A DNA stretch of 25,943 bases from a virus. Positions 1-15,844 of the stretch are shown one piece after another. Position numbers and translations under genes: made by a program. Under the pieces are notes generated by a model, which was given only the letters and a program-made list of their open reading frames with translations, ran no database searches and was not told the origin of the DNA. The DNA is taken from positions 1 to 25,943 of IMG/VR virus record IMGVR_UViG_3300027793_000260, one strand, 5' to 3'. Within the stretch, counting starts at the first letter, position 1. Each line of letters opens with the position of its first letter.

Positions 1-1
1 T

Positions 2-268
2 ACTGAAGGTTATGTTGATAATGCTGTAGTTGGTCTAGCGTCTGAAGGTTATGTTGATAATGCTGTAGTTGGATTTATAACTTCTGGTTCTTTAGTTGGT
101 TACGCTACTGAAGGTTATGTTGATAATGCTGTAGTTGGTCTAGCGTCTGAAGGTTATGTTGATAATCTAGTTGCTATTTCTACATTCTCTGGAAATTATA
201 ACGACTTATCAAATAAACCTCTTATTCCTTCTATAGTTGGTCTAGCGTCTGAAGGTTATGTTGATAAT
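2..268 (+). repeat. Direct repeats coding for EGYVDNAVVG units
   Basis: Five copies of a unit starting with codons for S/T-E-G-Y-V-D-N begin at 2, 41, 107, 146 and 248. The 39-nt units at 2-40 and 107-145 are identical at the base level, giving a higher-order period of 105 nt. The identity extends into the following copies at 41 and 146. They lie in frame in the fibre-like gene, and the array probably continues upstream of the window. Confidence 0.9.
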
Positions 269-2209
269 GCAATTTTTGGAATATCTACTGAAAAATATTG
301 GGAATCAACAGCAGCAGGAATTCATACACTTTCAAATGTTGGTATAGGAACCACAAATCCAACATCAAAACTGACAGTTGATGGAAATGTTAGAGTTACA
401 GGAGTTGTTACGGCAACAACTTTTGTAGGAAACTTCTCAGGTTCAATTACTAATGCAACAAATCTTACTGGTGGAACTGCAAATGCTTCTTCTCTAAATG
501 TAAGTGGAGTCACTACTATTTCTCAAGGTAGAATTCAAGCAGATGCTGTTGCAAACCTCAGATTTGGCAATTTACCTGCAGGATCTGGAAGTGGTAGAAA
601 TATTGCGATTGGTGATCAGGTTCTTGTATCATTAAGTGGTGGTTCAGGAAGAAATATTGGTATCGGAGAACTCTCATACTACGATACAACCACTGGCCAA
701 TACAACATCGGTGTTGGTGGCAGAGCGGGTCAAAAAGTTTCTACAGGATCTTACAATGTAATCCTTGGTGCTTATGATGGAAACTCTGGAAACCTTGACA
801 TCAGAACTTCATCAAATAATGTAGTGATTGCTGATGGTGAAGGAAATATCAGACAATACATAAACTCCAGTGGTAATGTTGGCATTAAGACCACAGTAGT
901 TACAGAAGCACTTACAGTTGTTGGTGTTGTATCTGCCACAAGTTTTTATGGAACATTAAATGCAGATCAACTTACTGGTGTATTGCCTGCAATTGATGGT
1001 TCTGCATTGTTTGGAGTTGTTTCTATTGGTGCTGGAGTTGAAATTAGAGAAGATGGAACTATTGTTGGAACTGCAGCAACAATTAACTTTGGTTCAAATA
1101 TAAATGTTTCCTTTGGTTCTGGTATTGCTACTGTTTCTGGCGCAAGTTCAGTATCTGAAGCATCAACTGCTTATGGACTTGCGGGAACTCCAAATGTATC
1201 TCTTGGCAATGTTACTGCAGGAATAGCAACTTTTAATAATGTTCAAATAGGATTATCTACATCATTAATTGTATCATCTGGAAATATACAACTTGGGACA
1301 AATGCATCTGGATTATTAATCAAGCAAAATGAAATTAACTTAACTGGACCAAGTGCAACTGATTTAAATTCAACTTATTTTTCTAATATAAAATTAAACA
1401 AAGTTGGAGGTGGGTTTAAATATGATTTAGAATTCCATAGTAATGGATATAGTTCTGGTGATATTGGAGATTTTATTTTCTACAGAAGACAATCTGGTTT
1501 TTCTAGACAAGAAAGATTTAGAATTAGTGGTGAAACTGGAAGTATTTCTGCAACAGGTAATGCTAATATTTCTGGAATCATCACTGCATCATCATTCTCT
1601 GGTTCTGCATCAGGTCTCACAAATATTCCTGCAGGACAACTTACTGGGAATCTTCCTGCAATTGATGGATCTGCACTTCTTAATGTCAATGCAACAGGAT
1701 CTGGTATTGTTGTTTTAGATGATAATGTGAATGTTGGTTCTGCTAGAACGATTAACTTTGGAACTGGACTTGATGTTAGTTATTCTACTTCTGGCATTGC
1801 AACAATCACGGCATCTGGTGGTTCATTACAATCGAGAACTACTGTTTCAGGAACAACCGCATCATTAGCAAATAATGGAATTGGTAATACTAACATTACT
1901 GGATTTAAATCTTATGCTCTGATGAAGGTCGGTCTATCTACTGCAGGTTGGTTACGCATATATACTGATAGTGCATCTCGTGTTGCCGATGCTTCTAGAA
2001 GTATTGGAATTGATCCATTACCTGGAAGTGGAGTAATTGCTGAAGTAGTTACTACCGGAATTTCAACAACTCAAATAATTTCTCCCTTTGTGATGGGTGG
2101 AAACCTCGATGATCCTGCTGATACTACAATTTATGCAGCAATCACAAATCTTTCTGGTTCAACTCAATCAATTACCGCAAACCTAACCATTCTTCAACTG
2201 GAGGCATAA
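2..2209 (+). CDS. Tail-fibre-like virion structural protein, 5' end outside the window
   Basis: The frame is open from base 2 to a TAA at 2207-2209 (735 residues) with no stop, so this is the C-terminal part of a larger protein. A GTG at 824 is internal and not the start. The N-terminal part holds repeats of the form (S/T)EGYVDNAVVG. These are followed by Gly/Ser/Thr/Asn-rich beta-structured sequence with motifs such as NVGIGTTNP, LTVDGN and VTATTF, typical of cyanophage fibre and neck proteins. A module LTGxLPAIDGSAL followed by INFG and SGIAT occurs twice (about 970-1137 and 1635-1815). There are almost no Cys residues. It sits directly upstream of two other structural genes with a 3-nt gap. 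The role is inferred to be host-surface contact or a fibre shaft; the exact fibre is not identifiable from sequence alone. Confidence 0.85.
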   Translation, partial: TEGYVDNAVVGLASEGYVDNAVVGFITSGSLVGYATEGYVDNAVVGLASEGYVDNLVAISTFSGNYNDLSNKPLIPSIVGLASEGYVDNAIFGISTEKYWESTAAGIHTLSNVGIGTTNPTSKLTVDGNVRVTGVVTATTFVGNFSGSITNATNLTGGTANASSLNVSGVTTISQGRIQADAVANLRFGNLPAGSGSGRNIAIGDQVLVSLSGGSGRNIGIGELSYYDTTTGQYNIGVGGRAGQKVSTGSYNVILGAYDGNSGNLDIRTSSNNVVIADGEGNIRQYINSSGNVGIKTTVVTEALTVVGVVSATSFYGTLNADQLTGVLPAIDGSALFGVVSIGAGVEIREDGTIVGTAATINFGSNINVSFGSGIATVSGASSVSEASTAYGLAGTPNVSLGNVTAGIATFNNVQIGLSTSLIVSSGNIQLGTNASGLLIKQNEINLTGPSATDLNSTYFSNIKLNKVGGGFKYDLEFHSNGYSSGDIGDFIFYRRQSGFSRQERFRISGETGSISATGNANISGIITASSFSGSASGLTNIPAGQLTGNLPAIDGSALLNVNATGSGIVVLDDNVNVGSARTINFGTGLDVSYSTSGIATITASGGSLQSRTTVSGTTASLANNGIGNTNITGFKSYALMKVGLSTAGWLRIYTDSASRVADASRSIGIDPLPGSGVIAEVVTTGISTTQIISPFVMGGNLDDPADTTIYAAITNLSGSTQSITANLTILQLEA

Positions 2210-2212
2210 TAA

Positions 2213-3688
2213 ATGGCAATTACAACTACAACTATTTCTAAGGCAGCAGGATGGGCTAGAACTGATGCAATTTATCAGTTGGAAAGTGCATTTACTTGGT
2301 TAGGCTGGCATGGTGAAACACAAACTGGTATTGTAACTGGTATTAGTGCTTATAGTGGTGGTGGAACTGTAGGATCATCGGGAACATCTTATTATGATGT
2401 GTTTACTGCAACTTCAACAGGAATTGGAACTGGAGCAAGTTTTTATGTTTCAAGAAACAATGGAACAGTAAATTCAATTTATGTCAATCGTCCTGGTGTT
2501 GGATATACAAATGGAGAGTATGTAACATTATCACCAGCAGATACTGGAGGTGCTGGAAATGGTGCTGTTGCAATTGGCATTACTGTTTTAGTTGAGGGAG
2601 GTGCATCTCCAGTTAGTTATGGATCCACAACTACTTTTTATGATAAAGATGTAACCACTGGGGGGACATACCCTTGGGGAGTATTGAGACACACAATTCA
2701 ATCAAATAAGAAATTTGGAGATACCTATAGGGGATTCCAAATGGTAAGTAATACTAATTTGGCATTTCATGTTGGGTCTGCATTTCACCCTTCAAATGTT
2801 TCATCTCCATATGTTAATAGGGCAAGTGGATATCCAAATAGATTTGCTGGTAATTCTAGTTTTGATATTCCAGTTATACCAGTTGTAAGTAATATTGCTT
2901 TTGATATATCATCTAATAATTGGGGTTATATTACCCAAACTACTACTGCTGGTGAAACAATTGCAAATTCTACATCTTATCAATTAGATTTAAACATTTA
3001 TAAGTCAGGAGTAGATCCAAAATTTGCAGTCTTATCTTATAAACATCCAACACTATCTTCTACAAAATTAAGAGATAATACATATCTAACTTTCATATCT
3101 CATAATTATACATCTACACTATGGGATTATGACAATGTATTTTTGAGTGGATTAACTTTAATTATTCCATACGGAGATGATTCTACTCCTTATTTAGAAT
3201 TTAGAACATATATTGCTGGTGAATACAATAATTATAGTAGTACCATCCCATCAAAACGTGCTGCTGAATTTGGATATGTTCCTCTTCCTAATGGGAATTA
3301 TATGTCTCCATTTAAAAGTACATATTATCGTTCAACATCTTGCCCACAAGGTTCAAACGTATATGACGCAAGCATTTATCTAAGAAATAATGCCACAACA
3401 TCAAATCGTGGTAATGGTGGAGAGAATAATATAGATTATTTACCATCATCAGCAAACTTTAATGCTGTAATTAAAGGTATTCCAATCAGCACACACTTAA
3501 TTCCTTGCCCATACTATATTCCCGATGACTTTGTATTGATTGATTTTGATTATGCAACACCATCTTCGAATATTCAACAAGGTGATACTATTACTATCAG
3601 TGGTTCTGAAGTTTATACTGTAATTACTGGTTCTTATAATCAAACTACGAGAACTCGTGGTATTCTCTTCTGTGCGAGGACTGTCTGA
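2213..3688 (+). CDS. Virion structural protein, probably tail fibre or tip
   Basis: 491 residues, starting 3 nt after the fibre-like gene with GGAGG about 12 nt upstream of its ATG. The N-terminus contains AAGWARTDAIYQLESAFTWLGWHG. It is followed by a Gly/Ser/Thr-rich region (about 45-130) and a mixed beta, Tyr/Asn-rich body of roughly 350 residues. The C-terminus ends in GILFCARTV. I recall this N-terminal Trp-rich pattern from conserved structural proteins of T4-like cyanophages, but no precise virion position can be given. The gene overlaps the next start by 1 nt (TGATG), which suggests translational coupling. No signal peptide or membrane span is visible. An adhesin or fibre-tip role is inferred from composition and from its place after the fibre-like gene. 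Confidence 0.75.
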   Translation: MAITTTTISKAAGWARTDAIYQLESAFTWLGWHGETQTGIVTGISAYSGGGTVGSSGTSYYDVFTATSTGIGTGASFYVSRNNGTVNSIYVNRPGVGYTNGEYVTLSPADTGGAGNGAVAIGITVLVEGGASPVSYGSTTTFYDKDVTTGGTYPWGVLRHTIQSNKKFGDTYRGFQMVSNTNLAFHVGSAFHPSNVSSPYVNRASGYPNRFAGNSSFDIPVIPVVSNIAFDISSNNWGYITQTTTAGETIANSTSYQLDLNIYKSGVDPKFAVLSYKHPTLSSTKLRDNTYLTFISHNYTSTLWDYDNVFLSGLTLIIPYGDDSTPYLEFRTYIAGEYNNYSSTIPSKRAAEFGYVPLPNGNYMSPFKSTYYRSTSCPQGSNVYDASIYLRNNATTSNRGNGGENNIDYLPSSANFNAVIKGIPISTHLIPCPYYIPDDFVLIDFDYATPSSNIQQGDTITISGSEVYTVITGSYNQTTRTRGILFCARTV

Positions 3689-3924
3689 TGGCAGATTTTA
3701 CTTTTCCAACTTTAACAACAGCAGTTGTTGGTTTTGTATCAACTACAGCATTTCAAGTTCAATCTACAAGTTCTTATATAATTGAACCTTCTAATGGAAC
3801 TGTGAGACTTGGGAATATAACTGGTTCTAACTTTAGTATTTTAACAGATACTAGACCTGGATACTTAACGGGAAGAAGACCAGTATCCGGTCAAGTATTC
3901 CCTCGTGGGGTTTATAATAAGTAG
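3688..3924 (+). CDS. Small fibre-associated conserved cyanophage protein
   Basis: 78 residues, with its start overlapping the preceding stop (TGATG at 3686-3690). The sequence is beta-rich, Thr/Ser/Val-heavy, and ends in GRRPVSGQVFPRGVYNK. I recall this C-terminal pattern as recurrent in small structural proteins and fibre C-termini of T4-like cyanophages. It is the last gene of the tail operon, followed immediately by a GC-rich hairpin. It may be a virion component or a fibre assembly partner. No catalytic motif is visible. Confidence 0.7.
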   Translation: MADFTFPTLTTAVVGFVSTTAFQVQSTSSYIIEPSNGTVRLGNITGSNFSILTDTRPGYLTGRRPVSGQVFPRGVYNK

Positions 3925-3932
3925 TTTAATTT

Positions 3933-3969
3933 CAAGAGGGGCACTCCCCCTTGACAGAGGTGTTTTTTT
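3933..3969 (+). terminator. Probable terminator of the tail operon, fused to the psbA promoter
   Basis: An imperfect hairpin pairs 3933-3941 with 3945-3953 (stem CAAGAGGGG / TCCCCCTTG, one mismatch, one G-T pair, loop CAC). A seven-T run follows at 3963-3969. The T run is separated from the stem by 9 nt, so termination may be inefficient. The right arm contains the start of the psbA -35 box. Confidence 0.5.
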
Positions 3970-3984
3970 GTGTTATGATAAATA
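3951..3984 (+). promoter_or_regulatory. psbA promoter: sigma-70 type with overlapping late-type box
   Basis: TTGACA (3951-3956), a 17-nt spacer and TATGAT (3974-3979) form a near-consensus bacterial promoter. The sequence ATAAATA (3978-3984), matching the T4/cyanophage late-promoter core, overlaps the -10 box. The predicted transcript start near 3986 gives psbA a leader of about 165 nt. Confidence 0.75.
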
Positions 3985-4103
3985 CATCAACAAGTTAAGA
4001 AATGTAACAAGTTCTTAATGTTGCTCCTCTTCCTAACCGAGACCTATGGGGAGGTTAAACACAGTCTCTCATATCCACACTGGAGGGTGGTGTGGAGTAT
4101 ACT

Positions 4104-4133
4104 GATACTAGTTCGTCCCCCCGAACTCATATC
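4104..4133 (+). promoter_or_regulatory. Hairpin in the psbA 5' leader
   Basis: GATA-CT-AGTTCG (4104-4115) pairs with CGAACT-CA-TATC (4122-4133) around the loop TCCCCC, giving 10 bp with a 2x2 internal loop. It ends 16 nt before the psbA ATG, where no Shine-Dalgarno sequence is visible. Another hairpin lies upstream: TTAAGAA/TTCTTAA around 3994-4017. A translational or RNA-stability role is inferred. Confidence 0.45.
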
Positions 4134-4149
4134 TAACACTCTTAAACAA

Positions 4150-5229
4150 ATGACTGCTACAATTTCACAACAACGACAATCAAATACTTGGGAACAGTTC
4201 TGCAACTGGGTCACTTCAACCGATAACCGACTTTATGTGGGGTGGTTCGGAGTTCTTATGATCCCAACGCTGCTTGCTGCTGCTACTTGCTTTATCATCG
4301 CATTCATCGGTGCTCCCCCAGTGGACATTGATGGTATTCGTGAACCAGTTGCTGGTTCACTCATGTACGGAAACAACATCATCTCTGGTGCTGTGATTCC
4401 TTCGTCCAATGCTATTGGACTTCACTTTTATCCTATCTGGGAAGCTGCTTCCCTAGATGAGTGGCTTTACAACGGTGGCCCTTTCCAATTGGTAGTCTTC
4501 CACTTCCTCATTGGCATCTACTGCTACATGGGTCGTGAATGGGAACTTTCTTACCGTCTAGGTATGCGTCCCTGGATCATGGTTGCTTACTCTGCACCTG
4601 TTGCTGCCGCAAGCGCAGTATTCCTTGTCTATCCTTTCGGCCAAGGTTCTTTCTCTGATGCAATGCCTCTAGGTATCAGTGGTACTTTTAACTACATGCT
4701 TGTGTTCCAGGCAGAACATAACATCCTTATGCACCCATTCCACATGCTTGGAGTTGCCGGTGTCTTCGGTGGTTCACTGTTCTCTGCGATGCACGGTTCT
4801 CTGGTTACTTCTTCACTGGTTCGTGAAACCACTGAGCAAGAGTCGCAGAACTACGGTTACAAGTTCGGTCAAGAGGAGGAAACATATAATATAATTGCTG
4901 CTCATGGTTATTTCGGACGCCTTATTTTCCAATATGCTTCCTTTAATAACTCACGCTCACTTCACTTCTTCCTTGCTGCTTGGCCTGTTGTAGGCATCTG
5001 GTTCACCGCTCTTGGTGTGAGCACTATGGCCTTCAATCTGAACGGCCTAAATTTCAATCAGAGTATCCTGGATCATCAAGGTCATGTAGTTCCTACTTGG
5101 GCTGATATCCTTAATCGTGCCAACCTCGGATTTGAAGTGGTCCACGAAAGAAATGCCCATAACTATCCTTTGGATCTTGCCGTAGCATCTACTACTGAAG
5201 TTGCTTTGACTGCTCCAAGTATTGGATAG
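4150..5229 (+). CDS. psbA: Photosystem II reaction-centre protein D1
   Basis: 359 residues starting [10 protein letters not shown], the normal D1 start; the frame is open further upstream but that part is leader. D1 binds P680, pheophytin, QB and part of the Mn4CaO5 cluster in the thylakoid membrane. Canonical residues fall at canonical numbers: Tyr161, Asp170, Glu189, His190, His198, His215, His252, Ser264, His272, His332, Glu333, His337, Asp342 and Ala344. Five membrane helices are expected. Residue 130 is Glu, as in high-light D1 forms. The C-terminal extension after Ala344 ([15 protein letters not shown]) is the part normally cleaved by CtpA. The gene is uninterrupted, with no group I intron. 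It looks more GC-rich than its neighbours, consistent with host origin. In phage infection D1 replaces photodamaged host protein to keep energy supply going. Confidence 0.99.
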
Positions 5230-5632
5230 CATTTGTAAAGTATTGGATATCTTCATTAAGGTATCCAATACCCATATTACATCTACAACATAATAATCCT
5301 CTAACAGAACCATCTTCATGTGAATGGTCTACTTGGAAAACATTATATCTCCCACCAGGAGTTGATGTTTTACAAATAGCACACTGATGGTTCTGTTTTT
5401 TTGATAGTTCTTCATATTCTGATATAGATATTCCGTATTTGTTTTTGAGATGTTTTTCTCTTTTTAACACCATACTTTCTGGTCTAGCATCCCAATCATT
5501 CTTTCTTTTTTTATCACAAACTTTACATACAGTTCTGTGAATTTTTCTTTCTTTACCGTATCTTTTATCAATCGCTTCATAAAATTCTGATAATGGTTTT
5601 TCAGTTCTACATTTGTTGCAAAGTTTCTTCAT
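5192..5632 (-). CDS. Endonuclease VII-like HNH/zinc nuclease, antisense to the psbA 3' end
   Basis: 146 residues. Zinc-type pairs C5-x2-C8 and C36-x2-C39 lie in the N-terminal half. The C-terminal half has the phage recombination endonuclease VII pattern: C84-x2-C87, VDHSH at 101-105, then [10 protein letters not shown] at 110-119 followed by GIG and an acidic residue. Members of this family cut branched DNA or act as free-standing homing endonucleases. The last 38 nt (5192-5229) overlap the end of psbA on the opposite strand, so the two genes are convergent. A free-standing endonuclease beside psbA is known in Synechococcus phage S-PM2, where it is linked to psbA intron sites. By analogy this could be a homing gene. 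It starts 17 nt from a divergent late-type box. Whether it cleaves psbA is inference. Confidence 0.9.
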
Positions 5633-5648
5633 AAAAGTGGAAACTAAC

Positions 5649-5662
5649 TATAAATATTTATA
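5649..5662. promoter_or_regulatory. Palindromic divergent late-type promoter box
   Basis: TATAAATATTTATA is a perfect 14-bp palindrome that presents TATAAATA on both strands. It lies between the endonuclease start (5632, minus) and the 40-aa membrane protein start (5689, plus). Position and sequence suit a bidirectional late promoter. Confidence 0.55.
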
Positions 5663-5688
5663 AGTTTCTTCTATTATACTACAAATTT

Positions 5689-5811
5689 ATGTCTCATAAT
5701 AATCAACATCATCCTATGGAACCCTGGATTATCTGGGCAGGAGTAGGTATGATGGGTTTCACAATCATTGTGTTTGTCGCCTTCACTCTTTCGGTAATTT
5801 ATTGGGGATGA
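5689..5811 (+). CDS. 40-residue single-span membrane protein next to psbA
   Basis: The frame codes for a hydrophilic His/Asn-rich start (MSHNNQHHPMEP), then one strongly hydrophobic span of about 25 residues from WIIWAGVGMMG to the end, closing IYWG. Length and topology resemble low-molecular-weight subunits of photosystems or the cytochrome b6f complex, but I cannot match it to a named subunit. It lacks the ExxN and NGR motifs of high-light-inducible proteins. It is transcribed away from the endonuclease, with a late-type box 32 nt upstream and a terminator 66 nt downstream. A weak Shine-Dalgarno sequence makes expression level uncertain. Confidence 0.65.
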   Translation: MSHNNQHHPMEPWIIWAGVGMMGFTIIVFVAFTLSVIYWG

Positions 5812-5876
5812 GTAAAAACACTCATTGACCTTTTTTGTGAAGTAATGCACTCTGAAAAAACAAATATAAAACTCTG

Positions 5877-5902
5877 AGATCCCTTGCATGGGATCTTTTT
5901 TT
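5877..5902 (+). terminator. Rho-independent terminator after the 40-aa gene
   Basis: AGATCCC (5877-5883) pairs perfectly with GGGATCT (5890-5896) around the loop TTGCAT, followed by T7 (5896-5902). The loop coincides with the -35 position of the next promoter. Confidence 0.85.
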
Positions 5903-5912
5903 GTGCTATAAT
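5884..5912 (+). promoter_or_regulatory. Promoter for the 5935 gene, overlapping the terminator
   Basis: A perfect TATAAT (5907-5912) is preceded by TGC, giving an extended -10. The hexamer 17 nt upstream is TTGCAT (5884-5889), which matches consensus only at TTG. Expected transcript start is near 5919, 16 nt before the ATG. Confidence 0.7.
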
Positions 5913-5934
5913 AGGTTTTTAGAATCTTATTAAA

Positions 5935-6678
5935 ATGAAAATGCCAAAAAAGCCCAAGATGCCTAAGATTCCAAAACTGCCAGATCCAATTGACATTATT
6001 GATGATGTTGTTGATGTAGTAGTAGACCCAATTACCGATGTTGTTAATGATACTGTAAATTTTGCTGAAAGTCTGGTAAAAGATACCAGTAAAGCAGTAG
6101 CACACACCACACAAATATGTGCATCACAGGCAGTAGAATATTCCAATCAAGGTTTTGATGTAGCATCAGACACTTGGAAACAAGGCACAGAAGCTACTAT
6201 TGCTGCCGTAAGCAATGGTGTTGAGATTGTGGAATACGCTTCTATGGAAGCATATAAGTGGTTAGATGCTAATGCTTGTTATCTTGGATTGAATTTTGCT
6301 CTTACGACAGGATGTGTGGCATACTTCACACCAAAACCAAGTCCAGCAGATCCTGGAACTGTTACTTCTGCAGCAATTAGTACTACCTATTTGAGTTATA
6401 TTGCCGTACAGGGATCAAATCTTGCAATGTCTATTGCAATTGCTAAGATCATTACTGAAGGTATTATTTTGATTCCTGGAGTGAAAGGTAATGTTGATGA
6501 GAAAATGTTATATAATGTTATCTGCAACACAATTGCTACTTGCAATCCAGTTGTGTTAAGTTTGAGTCTAGCTACTCCAGCAGGTGTCGGTATTTTTATT
6601 GGATCTGTAATTTCTCCTATTGTTGCTCAATTAGTATGTGAAAAGATTGCTCCTAAGGGATTTAAAGAAGCACTCTAA
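5935..6678 (+). CDS. Hydrophobic helical protein of unknown function
   Basis: 247 residues, not recognised. The N-terminus is a Lys/Pro/Met repeat (KPKMPKIPKLPDP, residues 6-18). An acidic/Val segment (DIIDDVVDVVVDP) and an amphipathic helical stretch follow, to about 100. The C-terminal half (about 120-240) is hydrophobic and small-residue-rich, with likely membrane-interacting segments near 165-180 and 205-230. Cysteines at roughly 62, 113, 125, 193, 199 and 235 are unusual for a soluble phage protein in the cyanobacterial cytosol. It is monocistronic: its own promoter lies just upstream and a strong terminator just downstream. A membrane-associated role is inferred; no family assignment is made. 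Confidence 0.8.
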   Translation: MKMPKKPKMPKIPKLPDPIDIIDDVVDVVVDPITDVVNDTVNFAESLVKDTSKAVAHTTQICASQAVEYSNQGFDVASDTWKQGTEATIAAVSNGVEIVEYASMEAYKWLDANACYLGLNFALTTGCVAYFTPKPSPADPGTVTSAAISTTYLSYIAVQGSNLAMSIAIAKIITEGIILIPGVKGNVDEKMLYNVICNTIATCNPVVLSLSLATPAGVGIFIGSVISPIVAQLVCEKIAPKGFKEAL

Positions 6679-6688
6679 AATAAATAAG

Positions 6689-6713
6689 AGGAGTTCCCAA
6701 AACTCCTTTTTTT
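6689..6713 (+). terminator. Rho-independent terminator after the 5935 gene
   Basis: AGGAGTT (6689-6695) pairs with AACTCCT (6701-6707) around loop CCCAA, followed by T7 (6707-6713). An ATAAATA sequence at 6680-6686 lies just upstream and may be coincidental. Confidence 0.85.
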
Positions 6714-6811
6714 ATGCTTCTTATTCTCATACTATTCCAACTCTTTGGAATCTTTATGTTTCTAATCTCACTCACAGACCACTACCACTACTAAAACTGG
6801 CACAAGATCTC

Positions 6812-6840
6812 AAGACATAAGACCAATCATCCATTATAAT
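6812..6840 (+). promoter_or_regulatory. Promoter for the exported protein gene
   Basis: TATAAT (6835-6840) with AAGACA (6812-6817, 4 of 6 consensus) and an exact 17-nt spacer. The predicted start near 6847 leaves a leader of about 15 nt before the ATG at 6862. Confidence 0.65.
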
Positions 6841-6861
6841 ACCTACATCATCATCTTGATT

Positions 6862-7272
6862 ATGAAAAAAGCACTCATCGCACTGACACTGATTCTCTCT
6901 CCTCTTACTGCGAACGCACAACAGAAGACCTACAAGTACATTGAAATGTGTTGGTATCTTGGTCAACGCAATCATCCATATATTGACCAAGCAACCTGCA
7001 CAATCACAGATATTCGTAATAAAGAAGGGTTTCTTGATAAGCGAATGATTGAAGCAAAAGTAAAAAACTCCAACATCACTTATGTTGTTAAGTCTTGGTT
7101 TGGTAGTCAAGGATTTATGACTTGGGATAGTGACCGACAATCGGCATATAAGAATCAATATAAAGTTGCTTCTCCTACTGCTGGAGTGATTCGCCAAGCA
7201 AATCTTCCCGCAGGTTATGGCATTACAGAAGTAACTAAAGACCTCTGGGTTCGTCAAATTTCTTGGGATTGA
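6862..7272 (+). CDS. Small exported protein with Sec-type signal peptide
   Basis: 136 residues from the ATG at 6862; a TTG two codons upstream is a less likely start. The N-terminus MKKALIALTLILSPLTANA is a textbook Sec signal peptide with an A-x-A cleavage site before QQKTY. The mature part (about 117 residues) has Cys at about 31 and 46, and many aromatic and Gln residues: MCWYLGQRNH, YVVKSWFGSQGF, DLWVRQISWD. The family is not recognised. A cyanophage protein sent to the periplasm or lumen during infection could act in envelope modification, lysis timing or superinfection exclusion, but nothing in the sequence chooses among these. It has its own promoter. Confidence 0.85.
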   Translation: MKKALIALTLILSPLTANAQQKTYKYIEMCWYLGQRNHPYIDQATCTITDIRNKEGFLDKRMIEAKVKNSNITYVVKSWFGSQGFMTWDSDRQSAYKNQYKVASPTAGVIRQANLPAGYGITEVTKDLWVRQISWD

Positions 7273-7311
7273 ATCATAACCAATCCTACATAAAACAGTT
7301 ACTTCTTACTA

Positions 7312-7473
7312 ATGAAAGACTTATCACTTTCCGAAGATCAAATTAAACTTCTTGCGGATGCATTATGGATGAGACAAAGATGTTTCATTGCTGGAGACAG
7401 AAGATTTAAAGAATACGGAGCAATGTTAGATACACTTTTAGAAGGAATGGAATATACTCCAAAAAGACTTTGA
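7312..7473 (+). CDS. 53-residue conserved-looking small protein
   Basis: ATG at 7312 to TGA at 7471-7473. The translation begins MKDLSLSEDQIKLLADALWM and ends GMEYTPKRL. It is helical and charged, with one Cys (residue 24) and no membrane span. It follows the exported protein by 39 nt without a promoter of its own, so it is probably co-transcribed with it. It precedes the hairpin upstream of talC. Function is unknown; ribosome-site evidence is weak. Confidence 0.6.
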   Translation: MKDLSLSEDQIKLLADALWMRQRCFIAGDRRFKEYGAMLDTLLEGMEYTPKRL

Positions 7474-7496
7474 TTATCTTCAATTCATAACAAAAT

Positions 7497-7525
7497 CTAA
7501 CACCTTAATAAGAACTCATTATAAT
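7497..7525 (+). promoter_or_regulatory. talC promoter
   Basis: TATAAT (7520-7525) with CTAACA (7497-7502, 4 of 6 consensus) and a 17-nt spacer. The transcript should start near 7532, which makes the ATG at 7531 unusable and supports the start at 7549. Confidence 0.65.
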
Positions 7526-7543
7526 TAGAGATGAGTTCTTATT
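7507..7543 (+). terminator. Perfect 13-bp hairpin upstream of talC, probable terminator
   Basis: AATAAGAACTCAT (7507-7519) is exactly complementary to 7531-7543, around an 11-nt loop, with a T-rich tail ending near 7547. It would end the transcript of the exported-protein pair. The loop contains TATAAT, the -10 box of the talC promoter. Confidence 0.65.
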
Positions 7544-7548
7544 TTTAT

Positions 7549-8208
7549 ATGAAGATCTTTTTAGATACCGCAGATGTTTCATTAATTAAACCAGCACATG
7601 AGACTGGATTATTGGATGGAGTCACTACAAACCCATCTTTAATTTTCAAAAGTGGAAGACAACTTCAAGAAGTTATTGAAGAAATTTCCACCACATTTTC
7701 AAATTTGGAAAGCATTTCTGCTGAAGTTGTTGCAGATACTGCCGAAGAAATGCTTTCACAGGCACAACAATATTATTCAATTTCACCTGCTATTACAATT
7801 AAAGTTCCCTGTACTGTAGAAGGACTTAAGGTATGTAAAACACTTTCCGATAAAGGAATTAAAGTTAATGTAACTTTGGTGTTCTCAGTTGCTCAGGCAA
7901 TTCTTGCATCTAAAGCAGGGGCAACATTCATCTCACCATTCGTTGGTCGTTGGATGGACAATTCAATTGATGGCATTGAATTGATCAAGAACATTCGCAA
8001 GGCATTTGATTATTCGGGAACATCTACACAAATCCTTGCCGCATCTCTTCGTGATGTAAGACAGGTAGAACAATCTTTCCTCAATGGTGCAGATGTGGTT
8101 ACAATCCCACCTATCGTATTTTGGGCAATGTATAAGAATATTATGACTGATAAAGGATTAGAATTGTTCCAAAAAGATTGGGAAAAAGTGATTAATGATG
8201 CAAAATGA
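7549..8208 (+). CDS. talC: Transaldolase, short phage/bacterial TalC type
   Basis: 219 residues from MKIFLDTADVS, the usual start of the TalC/fructose-6-phosphate aldolase-like subfamily. Motifs are DGVTTNPSLI (about 23-32), the Schiff-base lysine in TIKVPCT (about 83-89), NVTLVFS and SPFVGRWMD. It transfers dihydroxyacetone units between sugar phosphates in the non-oxidative pentose phosphate pathway. Cyanophages carry this short form rather than the longer host TalB. It overlaps the next gene by 4 nt (ATGA), and gnd follows, so all three are likely one operon. The expected effect with gnd is to route carbon toward ribose-5-phosphate and NADPH for phage DNA synthesis. An ATG six codons upstream (7531) was rejected because it lies at the promoter's predicted start point. 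Confidence 0.97.
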   Translation: MKIFLDTADVSLIKPAHETGLLDGVTTNPSLIFKSGRQLQEVIEEISTTFSNLESISAEVVADTAEEMLSQAQQYYSISPAITIKVPCTVEGLKVCKTLSDKGIKVNVTLVFSVAQAILASKAGATFISPFVGRWMDNSIDGIELIKNIRKAFDYSGTSTQILAASLRDVRQVEQSFLNGADVVTIPPIVFWAMYKNIMTDKGLELFQKDWEKVINDAK

Positions 8209-8411
8209 AACAAGAGCACCAGTGCTGGTATTTTGTAATGTCTTCTTTTGCAAGAATATATGGCGTCAATAAAGCAAAAAGCGATGAAAAAATACATGCA
8301 TTTGCATTAGAATGGTGCGATGATCACAATTATACTTGTGACATTCATCTTGATGATTTAAAAAAAGTTGATGTTTATTTTAGACAACAGTACGAATCTT
8401 GGGAGTATTAA
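8205..8411 (+). CDS. 68-residue unknown protein between talC and gnd
   Basis: Starts within the talC stop (ATGA at 8205-8208) and ends immediately before the gnd ATG, so it is translationally sandwiched in the carbon-metabolism operon. It is aromatic and acidic, with a CDDHNYTCDIH segment (Cys at about 38 and 45). It does not show the paired-cysteine arrangement of CP12, the other carbon-metabolism regulator common in these phages. No domain recognised. Because it sits between two pentose phosphate enzymes a role with them is possible, but only from context. Confidence 0.75.
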   Translation: MKQEHQCWYFVMSSFARIYGVNKAKSDEKIHAFALEWCDDHNYTCDIHLDDLKKVDVYFRQQYESWEY

Positions 8412-9446
8412 ATGAAAGTAGGATTAATTGGTCTTGGGAGAATGGGCGAAGGTATGTCTCGCCGTATGATGAAAGCTGGTATTGAAGTGTGGGGTTATCG
8501 TAGGAATTACGATAAAGCACAAGAAGCATACGAAAGTGGGTATGTTAGTGGCGTTACAACTACTATTGAAAATCTTGTTAAAGTAGTTAAACAAAATAAA
8601 AATGGTGGAACGCAACCAGGAATCTTTCAAATGGTTGTGCCTGCAGAAACTGTAGAGGAGACAATCAATGAGTTACTACGATATTGTGGTGAAGGAGATA
8701 TTATTATTGATCATGGCAATAGCAATTTTAAAGACAGTCGGAAGAGAGCAGAGCGTCTGGCAAAAGTTGGCATCCAATATATTGATTGCGGCACTAGCGG
8801 TGGTGTTTATGGTCTGGATCGTGGATACTGTCTTATGGTTGGAGGTGGAGATACTGCGGTCGCCACTTGTTCAAAGATATTCTCCGCCCTCTCCCCAGAT
8901 ATTCACTCCTGCCATAGAACGGATCCAACATCTGATGTGACTTCTGCTGAATATGGTTGGTTGCATTGTGGTGGTCCTGGAGCAGGACACTTTGTGAAGA
9001 TGGTGCATAATGGCATTGAGTATGGTATTATGCAGGCATATGCTGAAGGATTCAATATTATTAAAAATGCAAATGCAGGTGCTCAATATGTCCGAGAAGG
9101 AGACGCAGAGGTTGCCCCAATGGCAGACCCAGAATCTTATTGCTATGATATTGATGTTGCTGAGGTGGCTGAGTTATGGCGTCGCGGTAGTGTGGTTGGC
9201 AGTTGGTTACTCGATCTTACTGCTGATGTGCTACGCAGGGATGGTAGCCTTAAACAGTTCTCTGGAGGCGTATCCGACAGCGGTGAGGGTCGTTGGACTG
9301 TTTCTGCCGCTGTGGACTTGGGGGTTCCCGCTCCTGTTATTACTACAGCATTATTTGAAAGATTTAACTCACGCAATCTCGGATCATTCGGAGCAAAGAT
9401 CCTAAACGGAATGCGTTATATGTTTGGCGGACATCGTGTTAGATGA
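8412..9446 (+). CDS. gnd: 6-phosphogluconate dehydrogenase, short decarboxylating type
   Basis: 344 residues. The Rossmann nucleotide-binding motif GLIGLGRMG is at residues 4-12. The substrate-binding GTSGG (127-131) and the family signature GPGAGHFVKMVHNGIEYG (188-205), with catalytic Lys196, are intact. It oxidatively decarboxylates 6-phosphogluconate to ribulose-5-phosphate with reduction of NAD(P). The length fits the roughly 300-340-residue subgroup rather than the 470-residue canonical enzyme, so cofactor preference cannot be stated. It is the last gene of the talC operon; no clear terminator follows, but a new promoter begins 57 nt downstream. Part of the phage strategy to raise pentose phosphate flux. 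Confidence 0.97.
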   Translation: MKVGLIGLGRMGEGMSRRMMKAGIEVWGYRRNYDKAQEAYESGYVSGVTTTIENLVKVVKQNKNGGTQPGIFQMVVPAETVEETINELLRYCGEGDIIIDHGNSNFKDSRKRAERLAKVGIQYIDCGTSGGVYGLDRGYCLMVGGGDTAVATCSKIFSALSPDIHSCHRTDPTSDVTSAEYGWLHCGGPGAGHFVKMVHNGIEYGIMQAYAEGFNIIKNANAGAQYVREGDAEVAPMADPESYCYDIDVAEVAELWRRGSVVGSWLLDLTADVLRRDGSLKQFSGGVSDSGEGRWTVSAAVDLGVPAPVITTALFERFNSRNLGSFGAKILNGMRYMFGGHRVR

Positions 9447-9503
9447 TTAGTTCGGAAACGCCTTATAAACTGGCTGAGATCATTCGTGATACTTGGCCTG
9501 GAC

Positions 9504-9532
9504 TTTACACAATATCAAAATTGAGCTATAAT
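9504..9532 (+). promoter_or_regulatory. Promoter of the small-gene cluster
   Basis: TTTACA (9504-9509, 5 of 6), 17-nt spacer, TATAAT (9527-9532). It rules out the ATG at 9531 as a start, because that lies inside the -10 box, and points to the ATG at 9552. Confidence 0.8.
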
Positions 9533-9551
9533 GAAAAAAATACTTCAGACA

Positions 9552-9824
9552 ATGAACGAATACTGGATAGTGAAAGATCGTAGGAACGGTAATGTCATAT
9601 GCCATTGTGCCGATGTTAATGATGCGATAATGATGGTAAATTTTAATCCTCATCATCGCTCTTATAGTCGTCATCGTTTTATTATGGATCAGGTAATTGA
9701 TATTACTCCAACAACTGACAAACAACTTCCAGGGCAGATTGGACTTCCTTCTAGACAAATTCCCTTATTAAATTCACATAAGAAAAAGCTCCCAGAAGGA
9801 CAACAAAAACCAGTGATTATATGA
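9552..9824 (+). CDS. 90-residue hypothetical protein
   Basis: The start is set at MNEYWIVKDRRNG (9552), because an in-frame ATG at 9531 overlaps the promoter -10 box. The first half has a compact alpha/beta look: WIVKDRRNGNVICHCADVNDAIMMV. Cys at about 18 and 20 is followed by His-rich sequence (HHRSYSRHR). The C-terminal part is Lys/Pro/Gln-rich and probably disordered. The start resembles small domains that read a stretch of sequence and then an 'in-between' helix, but no family is claimed. It overlaps the next gene by 4 nt. Confidence 0.7.
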   Translation: MNEYWIVKDRRNGNVICHCADVNDAIMMVNFNPHHRSYSRHRFIMDQVIDITPTTDKQLPGQIGLPSRQIPLLNSHKKKLPEGQQKPVII

Positions 9825-10024
9825 ATCACAGAAAAAGAAAACAAGCAGAAAATCAAAAAAAGAAAGTGTACACCCCAGAAGGATACATTTCAGACCCACT
9901 AGATGCTGTTTGTCCTCATTGTGGAGAAAAACAAAAATCTTGTTCTTATGTAAATAGTTTAAGTCGTGCTTGGGCAAGGAGTGCTTGTGCTAAAAAACAT
10001 TCTACAAAGTCTTCAGAGAGATAA
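9821..10024 (+). CDS. 67-residue basic protein with one CPHC knuckle
   Basis: ATGA overlap with the previous gene. The N-terminus is very basic (NHRKRKQAENQKKK), then a zinc-knuckle-like CPHCGEKQKSC at about residues 31-41, then Cys at about 56. A single CxxC plus nearby Cys could bind one zinc ion. Nucleic-acid binding is a reasonable inference from charge and the knuckle. Only 83 nt separate it from the HNH nuclease gene. Confidence 0.65.
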   Translation: MNHRKRKQAENQKKKVYTPEGYISDPLDAVCPHCGEKQKSCSYVNSLSRAWARSACAKKHSTKSSER

Positions 10025-10107
10025 AGACATTTCTTATCATATAGAATTCATCTACATCTATATTACGATAAAAGAATTACTAGATATTACAAGTTCTCAT
10101 TTAAAGA

Positions 10108-10476
10108 ATGCAACTTTACAATTCATCAGAAGATTACCTTTACAATTTAGAAACATCATCTCCACAAGAAGCAAGAAGATTGTGGAGAAAATCAATCCGA
10201 GAAAAGTGGGAACATAAATGCGCTTATTGCGGAAGTGAAGAAAATTTAACATTAGATCATGTGATCCCACAAGCAGAAGGAGGTACCGATCACATCACTA
10301 ATGTCATATGTGCATGTGAATCTTGCAATAGGTCAAAGGCACATACCGCTTTTTATGAATGGTACCCAAAGCAACAATTTTATACTGAGGAAAGATTTAA
10401 TCAAATTGAAGAGTGGAGAACTCAAATGGTAAAACAAGAATTGAAAGTTTATAGACCACGAAAAAATATAACATGA
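10108..10476 (+). CDS. HNH endonuclease
   Basis: 122 residues with a full HNH/zinc fold: C38-x2-C41, TLDHVIP with D50-H51, GGTDHITN with N65, C70-x2-C73-N74 and a following Lys. The N-terminus (RRLWRKSIREKWEHKC) is typical of phage and bacterial HNH proteins that recognise the cut site through a basic helix. T4-like phages often carry such genes as free-standing homing endonucleases. It overlaps the next gene by 4 nt, so it is embedded in the operon rather than appended. Target unknown. Confidence 0.92.
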   Translation: MQLYNSSEDYLYNLETSSPQEARRLWRKSIREKWEHKCAYCGSEENLTLDHVIPQAEGGTDHITNVICACESCNRSKAHTAFYEWYPKQQFYTEERFNQIEEWRTQMVKQELKVYRPRKNIT

Positions 10477-10700
10477 AAAAAGGATTTATCACGCAAGATC
10501 ATTATGCTGCAATTCCTTATGGGAAAAAGCAGCTAATGGTCATTTTTAATAATCAGCAATTAGAAATCGTAAATACGGAACTACAGGCAAAAAAGTTCAT
10601 TGAAAATCACAGAGCCACTCCTGGAATTGGCACAATATTTGTTGAATCCGAATCTTCTCGTGTTAAAGTAAAACACACTAGAAAAAAATCCATCGAATAA
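10473..10700 (+). CDS. 75-residue hypothetical protein
   Basis: Start overlaps the HNH gene stop (ATGA). Mixed alpha/beta sequence beginning MKKGFITQDHYAAIPYGKKQ, with TPGIGTIFVESES in the middle and a strongly basic tail (KVKHTRKKS). The pattern 'NTELQAKKFIENH' suggests a short helix between strands. No motif recognised. Its stop overlaps a late-type box. Confidence 0.65.
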   Translation: MKKGFITQDHYAAIPYGKKQLMVIFNNQQLEIVNTELQAKKFIENHRATPGIGTIFVESESSRVKVKHTRKKSIE

Positions 10701-10703
10701 ATA
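10697..10703 (+). promoter_or_regulatory. Late-type promoter box ATAAATA
   Basis: ATAAATA ends 20 nt before the ATG at 10724, with CGGAG (10713-10717) as ribosome site between. The same arrangement recurs at 15221 and 19209. Confidence 0.55.
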
Positions 10704-10723
10704 TTTTTTAATCGGAGAATATT

Positions 10724-11035
10724 ATGCTCTCAACTCAAATTAGACTTAAATTGGAAAATATTGCAAGAAAAATTGAGAGAGGAGAAGAAGTCAGTCTAGA
10801 AGATATGATATTTGCTGAAAAATGGTCAAAGGCAAATCGATCAGCTGCTGAAATTATAAGAAAAGCAAGGAGAATTGCCGTACAGGGTAGGGGAAAAGAA
10901 GGAAGCCTAGACGAATTTATGCAGATTATGGACATAGGTAATCCAGATCCATCCACCCATTTAGATTCTTCTATGTCGGTTGATGACCTTTATAATTTCT
11001 TCAGAAATGATGACGATTCAATGCGAAGAGATTAA
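10724..11035 (+). CDS. 103-residue conserved-looking hypothetical protein
   Basis: Preceded by a late-type box and a good ribosome site. It is helical and basic in the first 65 residues (IRLKLENIARKIERGEEVSLEDM, then AEIIRKARRIAVQGRG), followed by an acidic Ser/Asp-rich C-terminus. The first segment resembles small helical linker or regulatory proteins seen across T4-like cyanophages, without a known role. No catalytic motif, membrane span or Cys. Confidence 0.75.
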   Translation: MLSTQIRLKLENIARKIERGEEVSLEDMIFAEKWSKANRSAAEIIRKARRIAVQGRGKEGSLDEFMQIMDIGNPDPSTHLDSSMSVDDLYNFFRNDDDSMRRD

Positions 11036-11059
11036 ATAGAAATAGAATTAGGAAAAAAC

Positions 11060-11227
11060 ATGGTTGTGTTGTTATCGGCAACCATAATAAGTTGCCCTCA
11101 GGTACTACAAATTATTGACAGGCTACAAAAAATAGTTGGACTCACACCAATACAAAAAAGTGAAATCTTAGTAGAAATCAAAAAAGTCATTCCAAGTTGC
11201 CCAGTTATAGTCAAAACAAAAAAATGA
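11060..11227 (+). CDS. 55-residue hypothetical protein with hydrophobic N-terminus
   Basis: Frame from ATG 11060 (GGA upstream) to TGA 11225-11227. It begins MVVLLSATIISCPQVLQII, either a short membrane anchor or a lipoprotein-like signal, and ends basic (VIVKTKK). Two SCP motifs (about residues 11-13 and 46-48) could form a disulfide. The stop overlaps the next start (ATGA at 11224), which supports both genes. Confidence 0.6.
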   Translation: MVVLLSATIISCPQVLQIIDRLQKIVGLTPIQKSEILVEIKKVIPSCPVIVKTKK

Positions 11228-11412
11228 AAACACAAAGTAAACAACTCGAAGCAATTGATCTTTTTATTGAAGACATTCAAACTCCTCACAGTGAAATCCG
11301 AATGCGGGCAAAAAAACTTCAATGTGATCAAGAGCTCACAGTTTGGCAAGATTTTGTGTTGGAATATCTCCAAAATATCAGACACACATTAGACGGCAAT
11401 TCGAAACTTTAA
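11224..11412 (+). CDS. 62-residue hypothetical protein
   Basis: The start at 11224 is chosen by its ATGA overlap with the upstream stop; an in-frame ATG at 11197 is less likely. Soluble, charged and helical (MKTQSKQLEAIDLFIEDIQ), with one Cys near residue 33. No family recognised. The next gene starts 3 nt after its stop. Confidence 0.65.
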   Translation: MKTQSKQLEAIDLFIEDIQTPHSEIRMRAKKLQCDQELTVWQDFVLEYLQNIRHTLDGNSKL

Positions 11413-11415
11413 CAA

Positions 11416-11691
11416 ATGCAAATTTATTATTCTACTCTTTTAGTTTTCTTTGGAATAATTGTTTATATGATGATAGTAGACAAAAATGTTTCTGATGCTA
11501 TCAATCTGATCTTCAAATTATTTTTAATTAGAATTGAAAGACTATATTGGATGGTTCGTTTTCATCCAAAAAATCCAATTACAAACTTAATTATGAAGTG
11601 GAAATATGATAGGTTGGCGTTGGAGCTCCATAAGGAGTTGACAGATCGGACAATCCATGTTAATGTAGAATCTGAAAATAAAGACCAATGA
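11416..11691 (+). CDS. 91-residue membrane-anchored hypothetical protein
   Basis: One N-terminal membrane span (about residues 4-21, LLVFFGIIVYMMIV) is followed by an amphipathic aromatic/basic segment (IERLYWMVRFHP) and a hydrophilic charged C-terminus. Topology suggests an inner-membrane anchor with a cytoplasmic or periplasmic tail. Overlaps the next gene by 4 nt (ATGA at 11688). Function unknown. Confidence 0.65.
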   Translation: MQIYYSTLLVFFGIIVYMMIVDKNVSDAINLIFKLFLIRIERLYWMVRFHPKNPITNLIMKWKYDRLALELHKELTDRTIHVNVESENKDQ

Positions 11692-12293
11692 GCACTGAGT
11701 CCAATTCAATTGACCTAAAATCTCTTCAATCTCGTATCAACGAGATCAAAAAGGAAGGAGAAGAAATTACTGATTTTACTTATGATTTTATTCAATGTCT
11801 CATGCATCGTCATGATCTCAAAGAATGTATTCCACCTGATTTTGAATTAGAAGAAATTCCAGAGTACATTTTCGATTCTTTGCGGAATGGAATTGTTCCA
11901 ACTAAAGACCAATTAATCGTGATTTCTCCAGATGATCAAAATTTTATGTGTTTTGAATTGATTTGGGTTTGTGGTATGGGAGCTATTGCTTCTTATGGTG
12001 CGGATGAAGATGGAGATGAAGAACAGGGAATTCCCAGTACATTTGATGCAATTCTTGCAATGCGAGATGTGAGCCCAGCACACAATATCGCATCGTATTT
12101 AATTGCTGTGCTTTCTCTTCTTATGTCACAACTTCCCAGTGAAGAGATGATTGAAAATATTACAAATAATTTTGATGAAAGTCAAGAGCAACTTCAAAAT
12201 AATATGGATAATTTTGTCGAATTTGCTTCTGCTATTATTACTCGTTACCGTGAGGACATGATGTATTATGGAACAACAAAAGAATTGGATTGA
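11688..12293 (+). CDS. 201-residue acidic hypothetical protein
   Basis: Largest protein of this cluster half. Strongly acidic and mostly helical, with a central region containing CFELIWVCGMGAIASYG and the acidic loop DEDGDEEQG (about 105-113). A hydrophobic segment near 130-145 (IASYLIAVLSLLM) may pack in a core rather than cross a membrane. No known motif. It starts by ATGA overlap and overlaps the next gene by 26 nt, which shows how compressed the cluster is. Confidence 0.75.
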   Translation: MSTESNSIDLKSLQSRINEIKKEGEEITDFTYDFIQCLMHRHDLKECIPPDFELEEIPEYIFDSLRNGIVPTKDQLIVISPDDQNFMCFELIWVCGMGAIASYGADEDGDEEQGIPSTFDAILAMRDVSPAHNIASYLIAVLSLLMSQLPSEEMIENITNNFDESQEQLQNNMDNFVEFASAIITRYREDMMYYGTTKELD

Positions 12294-12483
12294 TGATCGT
12301 GCCTTTTACATCGAAAAGGCACGATGGGGAACATGGAAAAGTTATGACAAAGAAGGAAAAGGATTAATTACAAGCCTCACCGAAGAAAATTGTATTCATG
12401 CAACTCGATTTTACCTAAAAGGACTGCAGGAAGGTTGGGAAGAAATGTCTACTTATGGTGGAGAAATAGATTATAAATTATGA
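12268..12483 (+). CDS. 71-residue hypothetical protein
   Basis: Starts inside the previous gene (26-nt overlap, different frame) and ends by ATGA overlap with the next. Tryptophan- and acid-rich: NWIDDRAFYIEKARWGTWKSYDKEGKG, then LKGLQEGWEEMS. It looks like a small folded domain with a possible beta-hairpin. No Cys. No family recognised. Confidence 0.65.
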   Translation: MEQQKNWIDDRAFYIEKARWGTWKSYDKEGKGLITSLTEENCIHATRFYLKGLQEGWEEMSTYGGEIDYKL

Positions 12484-12632
12484 ATGATACGGATCCCACC
12501 TCACCTTGGTTTGAATTTGTTTCTTATATTAGATGTTGTGAATCATTAGGAGTGGTTCCTAGTATGAATCGTTTTCTTGCTTACAATCGTTATTATCAAT
12601 CCGTTTTAAATGAAAAACAAAAAACCAGTTAA
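12480..12632 (+). CDS. 50-residue hypothetical protein
   Basis: Supported by the ATGA overlap with the gene before. Translation begins MNDTDPTSPWFEFVSYIRCC and ends NEKQKTS; aromatic-rich with an adjacent Cys pair at 19-20. It overlaps the following gene by 23 nt in another frame. Function unknown. Confidence 0.55.
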   Translation: MNDTDPTSPWFEFVSYIRCCESLGVVPSMNRFLAYNRYYQSVLNEKQKTS

Positions 12633-12870
12633 AGTAAAACCTCAAAGTAAAAGAGAAAAACCAAAAGAAGAAATAGTTTTGGACACTTTGCCTTTTCATG
12701 AAACCTTTCCTTTGACACTTGTACATAAAGATAGAAAAGAAGAAAAAACTTGCTTTTTTGTTTGCCAAGAACATTTGGACAAATATATTTCTAGGTATAT
12801 GTTAAATAAAAAAGATTGTAGAATATCGAAAACAGAACCAAGGGTAAAAGGAGATAATACTAATGTATGA
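12610..12870 (+). CDS. 86-residue basic hypothetical protein
   Basis: Highly basic N-terminus (KNKKPVKVKPQSKREKPKEE), then a compact part with TCFFVCQEHLDKYISRYM (Cys about 48 and 52) and a basic tail. Nucleic-acid or ribosome contact is possible from charge alone. Overlaps both neighbours; its last bases contain the ribosome site of the next gene. Confidence 0.6.
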   Translation: MKNKKPVKVKPQSKREKPKEEIVLDTLPFHETFPLTLVHKDRKEEKTCFFVCQEHLDKYISRYMLNKKDCRISKTEPRVKGDNTNV

Positions 12871-13030
12871 TGATTTTGATGATTGGTTTTACGAAATAGA
12901 AAGTTTTTCTAGTAGATCCGAAAGATTTTTTGGTGATATCCAATGTCCAGATCCGTTTATGAAACAAAAAATTATGATTGATTGGTTGAAAACTGCTTGG
13001 GAATTAGGTAAAAATTCTAATAAAAAATGA
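12863..13030 (+). CDS. 55-residue acidic hypothetical protein
   Basis: ATG 12863 with AAGGAG at 12848-12853, stop overlapping the next start (ATGA at 13027). Begins MYDDFDDWFYEIESF, then a helix PFMKQKIMIDWLKTAWELG. Small acidic aromatic proteins of this sort can be inhibitors or DNA mimics, but there is no direct evidence here. Confidence 0.6.
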   Translation: MYDDFDDWFYEIESFSSRSERFFGDIQCPDPFMKQKIMIDWLKTAWELGKNSNKK

Positions 13031-13236
13031 AAAAACCAAAAACTATTTTTAGGTGGTGGGCAAAGTCTCTTGGAGAAAAGTCATCAAAATGTGATCGAGA
13101 GTCTGATATTATCGCAGTAATACGAACTGTAATTTTTTTGACTTACTTGATTACAAATTGTTTCATTGTTGCTGGAGTGATTCGTCATTGGAATGATGTA
13201 GAGTATACTAGACCAGGTATCATTCAATCTCAATGA
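13027..13236 (+). CDS. 69-residue membrane protein
   Basis: ATGA overlaps at both ends. A basic N-terminus (KKPKTIFRWWAKS) precedes one membrane span at about 29-50 (AVIRTVIFLTYLITNCFIVAGV). The positive-inside rule predicts the N-terminus in the cytoplasm. Family unknown. Confidence 0.65.
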   Translation: MKKPKTIFRWWAKSLGEKSSKCDRESDIIAVIRTVIFLTYLITNCFIVAGVIRHWNDVEYTRPGIIQSQ

Positions 13237-13442
13237 AATATCGAATAGTAGAAAAATCAGATTTAAGTGGGGAAATTTGTTTTTTCCCACAATATAAAAA
13301 ACTGTTTTTTTGGTTTAATTTTATGGAGATGGAATTATTCCCAAAGGTAATTAAATTTTATTCATTAGAATCTGCGACCAAATTCATTAAAAAACAACTC
13401 AACAACCCTGAGAAAAAAATTTATTATGTTGGAAATGATTGA
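13233..13442 (+). CDS. 69-residue hypothetical protein
   Basis: Starts by ATGA overlap. Aromatic and basic, MKYRIVEKSDLSGEICFF, with a WFNFMEMELFP patch and a SLESATKFIKKQL helix. The layout 'strand, strand, strand, helix' resembles small alpha/beta host-takeover proteins of T4-like phages, but no match is claimed. Its 3' end overlaps the next gene. Confidence 0.6.
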   Translation: MKYRIVEKSDLSGEICFFPQYKKLFFWFNFMEMELFPKVIKFYSLESATKFIKKQLNNPEKKIYYVGND

Positions 13443-13934: not shown

Positions 13935-13936
13935 TC

Positions 13937-14458: not shown

Positions 14459-14476
14459 TGCGGAAATCCGCACTTT
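14457..14476 (+). terminator. Hairpin closing the 9.5-14.5 kb small-gene run
   Basis: AGTGCGG (14457-14463) pairs with CCGCACT (14468-14474) around AAAT. The tail is T-rich but interrupted (TTTACTTATTTT), so termination strength is uncertain. Confidence 0.6.
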
Positions 14477-14501
14477 ACTTATTTTCATAATGCGATAAAA
14501 T
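14474..14501 (+). promoter_or_regulatory. Weak promoter candidate after the hairpin
   Basis: TTTACT (14474-14479) and TAAAAT (14496-14501) with a 16-nt spacer. Weaker than the other promoters, but again fused to a terminator-like hairpin, and followed by AAGGAG before a GTG start. Confidence 0.4.
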
Positions 14502-15840: not shown

Positions 15841-15844
15841 AGGT

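Follow-up and report, generated by a model that had tools for sequence, protein, structure and literature searches.

The psbA gene in the viral DNA analysed here (a stretch of 25,943 nucleotides, referred to as the window) is probably preceded by a hybrid early/late promoter of a T4-like cyanophage, in which a host-type sigma70 promoter and a phage late promoter core overlap. The features on which the argument rests are the following.

3933-3953, plus strand: hairpin CAAG.GGGG / CACT / CCCCCTTG, covering bases 1-3 of the -35 box (folding)
3951-3956, plus strand: -35 hexamer TTGACA, host sigma70 type, early promoter (direct reading and promoter scan)
3963-3969, plus strand: run of seven T inside the promoter spacer (direct reading; relatives L006, L010 and L035)
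3974-3979, plus strand: -10 hexamer TATGAT with TG one base upstream, extended -10 (reading and scan)
3978-3984, plus strand: ATAAATA, predicted T4-type late promoter core, gp55 site (reading and motif scan)
3988-4023, plus strand: predicted 5'-proximal RNA hairpin of the psbA transcript (folding and helix counts)
4016-4110, plus strand: PhotoRC-II cis-regulatory RNA, RF01717 (covariance model, 72.5 bits against a gathering score of 39)
4150-5229, plus strand: psbA, photosystem II D1 protein, 359 aa (phrog_182, E 1.1e-196)
21010-21273, plus strand: gp33-type late promoter transcriptional regulator (phrog_254, E 5.5e-29)

The preliminary description had placed TTGACA and TATGAT, 17 nt apart, upstream of psbA, with ATAAATA overlapping the -10, and both claims were borne out by direct reading and by the scans. 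The sigma70 part has a TTGACA-like and a TATAAT-like hexamer at a spacing within 16-18 nt and, with 11 of 12 matches, is scored as strong; it shares with ATAAATA only two bases, the AT at 3978-3979. The late core, GATAAATA at 3977-3984, agrees with the T4-type core NATAAATA, a consensus taken from PMC2984593 and PMC1524935 (here and below, statements from papers cited by PMC number refer to those parts of their text that were available). In T4 the late promoter is TATAAATA at -13 to -6 (PMC1524935), and the same position of NATAAATA relative to the start is assumed for the window. Neither class of motif is enriched singly: ATAAATA was found 12 times in the window against 12.09 expected, and its count alone was therefore rejected as a signal, while sigma70-like sites in positions 1-20000 numbered 76 against 78.1 expected. 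The evidence thus resides in the phased combination and in its conservation. The pattern TTGACN{17,19}TANNATAAATA, which was composed after the site had been seen, occurs once in the window, the mean over 100 shuffles being 0.01.

Conservation was studied in 80 psbA loci from IMG/VR and 19 from named phages (13 cyanomyoviruses and 6 podoviruses, hand-picked from a list of 60 out of 512 psbA-matching records, plus S-RSM4). A locus was counted as hybrid if it had ATAAATA in register and at least four of six matches in each hexamer. By this definition the hybrid is found in 48 of 76 IMG/VR loci, four of the 80 (L007, L049, L053 and L061, with less than 200 nt upstream) having been left out of these counts and of the Rfam scans, and in 8 of the 13 named cyanomyoviruses. 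It was found in none of the 6 podovirus psbA genes and, in degenerate form (4/6 and 4/6), in one of 77 cyanobacterial psbA genes; dinucleotide shuffles gave a rate of about 0.4-0.5%. Inheritance of the hybrid from host psbA was rejected on the basis of this single degenerate case. It says little about the true hosts, because the 77 genes (the top database hits, less 3 of 80 that had under 200 nt upstream) come mostly from organisms other than marine picocyanobacteria. The 28 IMG/VR loci that lack the hybrid comprise six with PhotoRC-II and 22 with neither element, the latter resembling, by eye, podovirus or host arrangements.

A set that was not picked by promoter was obtained by taking every psbA-proximal PhotoRC-II match, 62 loci that reduced to 60 distinct ones, window included, when the duplicates L014 and L039 were removed. 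A sigma70 box with at least 9 of 12 matches is present in 59 of these 60 leaders (L011 has no convincing box, and the -35 of L017, CTCACA, is poor). Lack of conservation of the ATAAATA core in other psbA-bearing phages, which had been named beforehand as an outcome that would speak against a dual promoter, did not occur: the core is exact and in register in 49 of the 60 leaders. It has one mismatch in another four, two of which carry CTAAATA, reported as the late core of phage Aeh1 (PMC1524935), and the remaining seven keep 3 to 5 of its 7 letters. TTGAC at 16-18 spacing occurs in nearly all leaders, including those that have lost the late core. Judged from these comparisons, the early/late overlap at psbA is not due to chance; by the counts, the sigma70 part hardly varies, and the late part is common without being indispensable. 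The latter shows also in the five of 13 named cyanomyoviruses (P-SSM7, S-SSM7, S-ShM2, S-TIM54 and S-SSM6b) in which an exact late core in register is missing and the -35 has at least five of six matches in every case; there sigma70 may suffice.

The combination is also rare away from psbA. In the 13 cyanomyovirus genomes (T4-like, 2.49 Mb) TTGACN{17,19}TANNATAAATA has 12 matches spread over 8 genomes, the reversed pattern used as control has none, and the pattern is absent from three podovirus genomes. Eight of the 12 belong to psbA, one per genome, with Syn9 and P-HM2 among these genomes. The others lie ahead of a small-ORF block in P-HM2, ahead of DUF680-DUF680-pstS in P-SSM2 and S-SM2, and ahead of a block with petE and PTOX in S-SSM5. 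Among 201 sigma70-like boxes with at least 10 of 12 matches in Syn9, S-SSM5, P-HM2, S-RSM4 and the window, the late core is in register at seven, four of which are at psbA; as this leaves only 3 of 197 boxes elsewhere, the hybrid was rejected as a generic feature of early promoters. A pattern scan of IMG/VR placed 23 of 131 sites before psbA among the matches listed, which is not a rate. By eye, and again among the matches listed, hybrid sites precede gene starts resembling secreted or outer-membrane proteins in L165, L185, L194 and L199, an hsp20-like gene in L116 and a gp32-like gene in L125; many other sites listed are in contigs that are probably not cyanophage.

In the window the promoter is followed by the 5' hairpin, PhotoRC-II and the psbA ATG at 4150, in this order. 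The support for the hairpin consists of helix counts and folding z-scores: in 51 distinct hybrid leaders the mean z of the first 36 nt is -1.95, as compared with -0.04 to -0.70 at five other offsets, and a perfect 8-bp helix is present in 26 of the 51, in the form of 24 different helices, against 4% in shuffles. Judging from its position, the hairpin could shield the RNA at its 5' end. It is retained by leaders without a PhotoRC-II match such as L012 and L072, which belong to the six hybrid psbA leaders with no match at gathering level (the others being L023, L054, L071 and L073). Window positions 4016-4110 match the whole PhotoRC-II model (RF01717, PMC2864571); the psbA promoter and the 5' hairpin lie upstream of what the Rfam model covers. 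PhotoRC-II is present in all 13 named cyanomyoviruses versus none of the 6 podoviruses. L063 has a second copy (1006-1098), 1.4 kb upstream of psbA and ahead of a 388-aa tail-fibre-like ORF, and its contig carries a second exact hybrid before a tail-fibre-like ORF (L148 4249, among the matches listed). A second copy upstream of psbA is found in L018, too (1026-1119), with an ORF that by eye looks HNH-like (1666-2163) between the copies. Another RNA element, the Glutamine-II riboswitch, has matches in the vicinity of psbA, in most cases shortly downstream of it, in 3 of the 6 podoviruses and in some IMG/VR contigs (L033, L034, L216, L219, L220 and others); the Rfam scan found it at none of the 13 cyanomyovirus loci.

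The preliminary description had also seen a terminator, a hairpin with seven T, at the promoter. Both elements are there, and it is their interpretation that did not hold. In the most favourable fold, which has a z-score of only -1.56, 3946-3953 pairs with 3933-3936 and 3938-3941, and the T run starts 9 nt past the end of the hairpin. The hairpin is missing from the 24 terminator-like sites (stem with adjacent T run) found by scanning the window; on account of this absence and the 9-nt gap, a canonical intrinsic terminator before psbA was rejected. In the relatives L006, L010 and L035 an 8-bp stem without mismatch encloses a loop containing TTGAC and is followed by a T run and then by the -10, an arrangement that qualifies as a terminator. 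The window retains the T run and part of both arms, and the intact loop terminators of these relatives would explain its hairpin and distant T run as a decayed terminator whose loop held the -35 box. A terminator-like site overlaps or lies at most 80 nt upstream of 9 of 57 hybrid psbA promoters, over the -35 in three of the nine; in single-base shuffles the count was 18 of 570. The decayed terminator would probably provide weak insulation at most from the upstream neighbours of psbA, which by eye look like tail-fibre genes and have no family match. Elsewhere in the window, at 18028-18062, a terminator (GGAGGA/TTGACAG/TCCTCC followed by seven T) is fused to a perfect sigma70 promoter, TTGACA-17-TATAAT, with the -35 in the hairpin; similar fusions were seen by eye, among the matches listed, in P-HM2 (L341:753) and S-SSM5 (L331:16355).

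From the sequence, its conservation and register, the controls and the leader RNA we infer the use of each site, the start points, the timing and the hand-over between polymerases in this phage as follows. Early in infection, transcription by the host sigma70-type RNA polymerase would begin immediately past TATGAT, at about 3985-3987. With gp55, gp33 and the sliding clamp available later on, ATAAATA would serve the late polymerase, whose start would lie a few bases further along, at about 3990. At T4 late promoters, where gp33 replaces sigma domain 4, no -35 is required (PMC2988020); an overlapping site would therefore let both polymerases start within a few bases and would give one leader for both phases. 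Early and late transcripts would have nearly the same 5' end, each bearing the 5' hairpin and PhotoRC-II before psbA, and expression would begin before the early-to-late switch, continue past it and appear as 'middle' timing. The gp33-type protein, a predicted part of the late machinery, is encoded in the same genome as the psbA hybrid, the window being a 25.9-kb fragment. Continuous replacement of D1 would be a rationale for expressing psbA both early and late. Published timing in a related phage fits expression that is on before and through the switch: P-HM2 psbA carries the hybrid promoter, and the metabolic genes of P-HM2, psbA included, are exclusively in the middle cluster (PMC5082946). 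One result that counts against the explanation is that Q-PCR gave no middle profile for a few S-PM2 genes whose T4 counterparts are middle genes (PMC2984593).

The hybrid promoter has to be weighed against three other explanations. The site may be a plain early sigma70 promoter in which ATAAATA is an A/T-rich stretch that aids melting and is never used by gp55. The greater constancy of the box than of the late core (59 versus 49 of 60), the missing exact core in 5 of 13 named phages and the listing of Syn9 psbA, in a review table, as co-expressed in early infection (PMC6359870) are in favour of this explanation, which we regard as unlikely, though worth keeping in mind, since of 197 sigma70-like boxes elsewhere only three are followed by the AAATA extension, and podovirus and host psbA lack it. 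It is much less probable that the site is a genuine late promoter whose -35 is a relic or an accident and that psbA is expressed only with the late genes. The tail-fibre-like appearance of the upstream neighbours (by eye, without family match) and the dispensability of a -35 in T4 late promoters (PMC2988020) would agree with this; the persistence of suitably spaced TTGAC even in leaders without a late core, and P-HM2 timing published as middle, not late (PMC5082946), speak against it.

The third explanation is that psbA is cargo of a recombination module. PeSL (promoter-early stem-loop) cassettes, reportedly described by Arbiol 2010 and Comeau 2014, are fusions in which a strong early promoter is combined with an effective stem-loop terminator. 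Against this definition, the window psbA has the promoter and a decayed terminator. The likeness to PeSL (mentioned in PMC4503421) is the combination of a stem-loop with an early promoter, and the differences are the added late core and the decay of the terminator. The loop terminators of L006, L010 and L035, the perfect fusion at 18028-18062, and the duplicated PhotoRC-II and hybrid (L148) on the contig of L063 suit such a module, but of 57 hybrid psbA promoters no more than three carry the fused terminator and nine any terminator-like site upstream, and that of the window itself is decayed; we consider this the least probable of the three, with very little in prospect for it.

The hybrid early/late promoter preferred here is not new as such. 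Puxty et al. 2018 (PMC5931967) described, upstream of cyanomyoviral psbA, sigma70 -35 and -10 motifs of which the -10 contains a gp55 late site, read them as early-and-late expression, and reported a 5'-UTR hairpin in S-PM2d, which may be the one seen here. The window is a further case of this kind of promoter. It differs from S-PM2d in that its psbA has no group I intron and is an intact 359-aa frame, and from the published motifs in that PhotoRC-II is present and the -35 is overlapped by a decayed terminator. Middle genes of RB49 and S-PM2 are likewise believed to be driven by early and late promoters that overlap, which were invoked for middle expression without MotA (PMC2984593); the genes there are homologues of T4 middle genes, whereas that in the window is a host-derived photosynthesis gene. 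Our additions are the conservation counts, the controls, the few hybrids outside psbA (pstS block, petE/PTOX block) and the conserved 5' hairpin before PhotoRC-II. A literature search, with most subscription papers (including those on the Syn9 transcriptome and PeSL) outside its reach, found no count of the conservation of the hybrid in relatives or of its occurrence outside psbA.

Several other signals in the window deserve mention. A divergent pair of late cores, ATAAATATTTAT, is located at 5650-5661; its plus-strand core precedes a small ORF near 5690, and its minus-strand core is followed 22 nt later by an endonuclease VII-like ORF (5192-5632, minus strand), which converges with psbA, overlaps its last 38 nt and is reminiscent of the CfrI antisense RNA of S-PM2. 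Further metabolic genes begin 2.3 kb past psbA: talC (7531-8208) and a 6-phosphogluconate-dehydrogenase-like gene (8412-9446). In the region 17657-17756 a Glutamine riboswitch (RF01739, 17704-17756), before a 44-aa ORF at 17784, is preceded by ATAAATA (17657) and TTGACA-17-TATACT (17669) in tandem, without overlap.

The presumed role of psbA in cyanophages is to maintain photosystem II activity in the ocean cyanobacteria that they infect. Cyanophages have no homologues of MotA and AsiA, and the origin of their 'middle' expression has been described as unclear (PMC2984593). It is conceivable, and we propose it only tentatively, that the phased sigma70/gp55 hybrid is a dedicated cyanomyovirus promoter type mainly for metabolic genes (mostly psbA, DUF680-pstS in P-SSM2 and S-SM2, petE/PTOX in S-SSM5), that this promoter, the 5' hairpin and PhotoRC-II together make up a portable module, observed on one occasion before a tail-fibre-like gene, and that it is the MotA-free basis of 'middle' metabolic expression. 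A conserved two-polymerase promoter that is rare outside psbA would be a simple and testable answer for 'middle' expression, and the phages without the late half offer a natural comparison.
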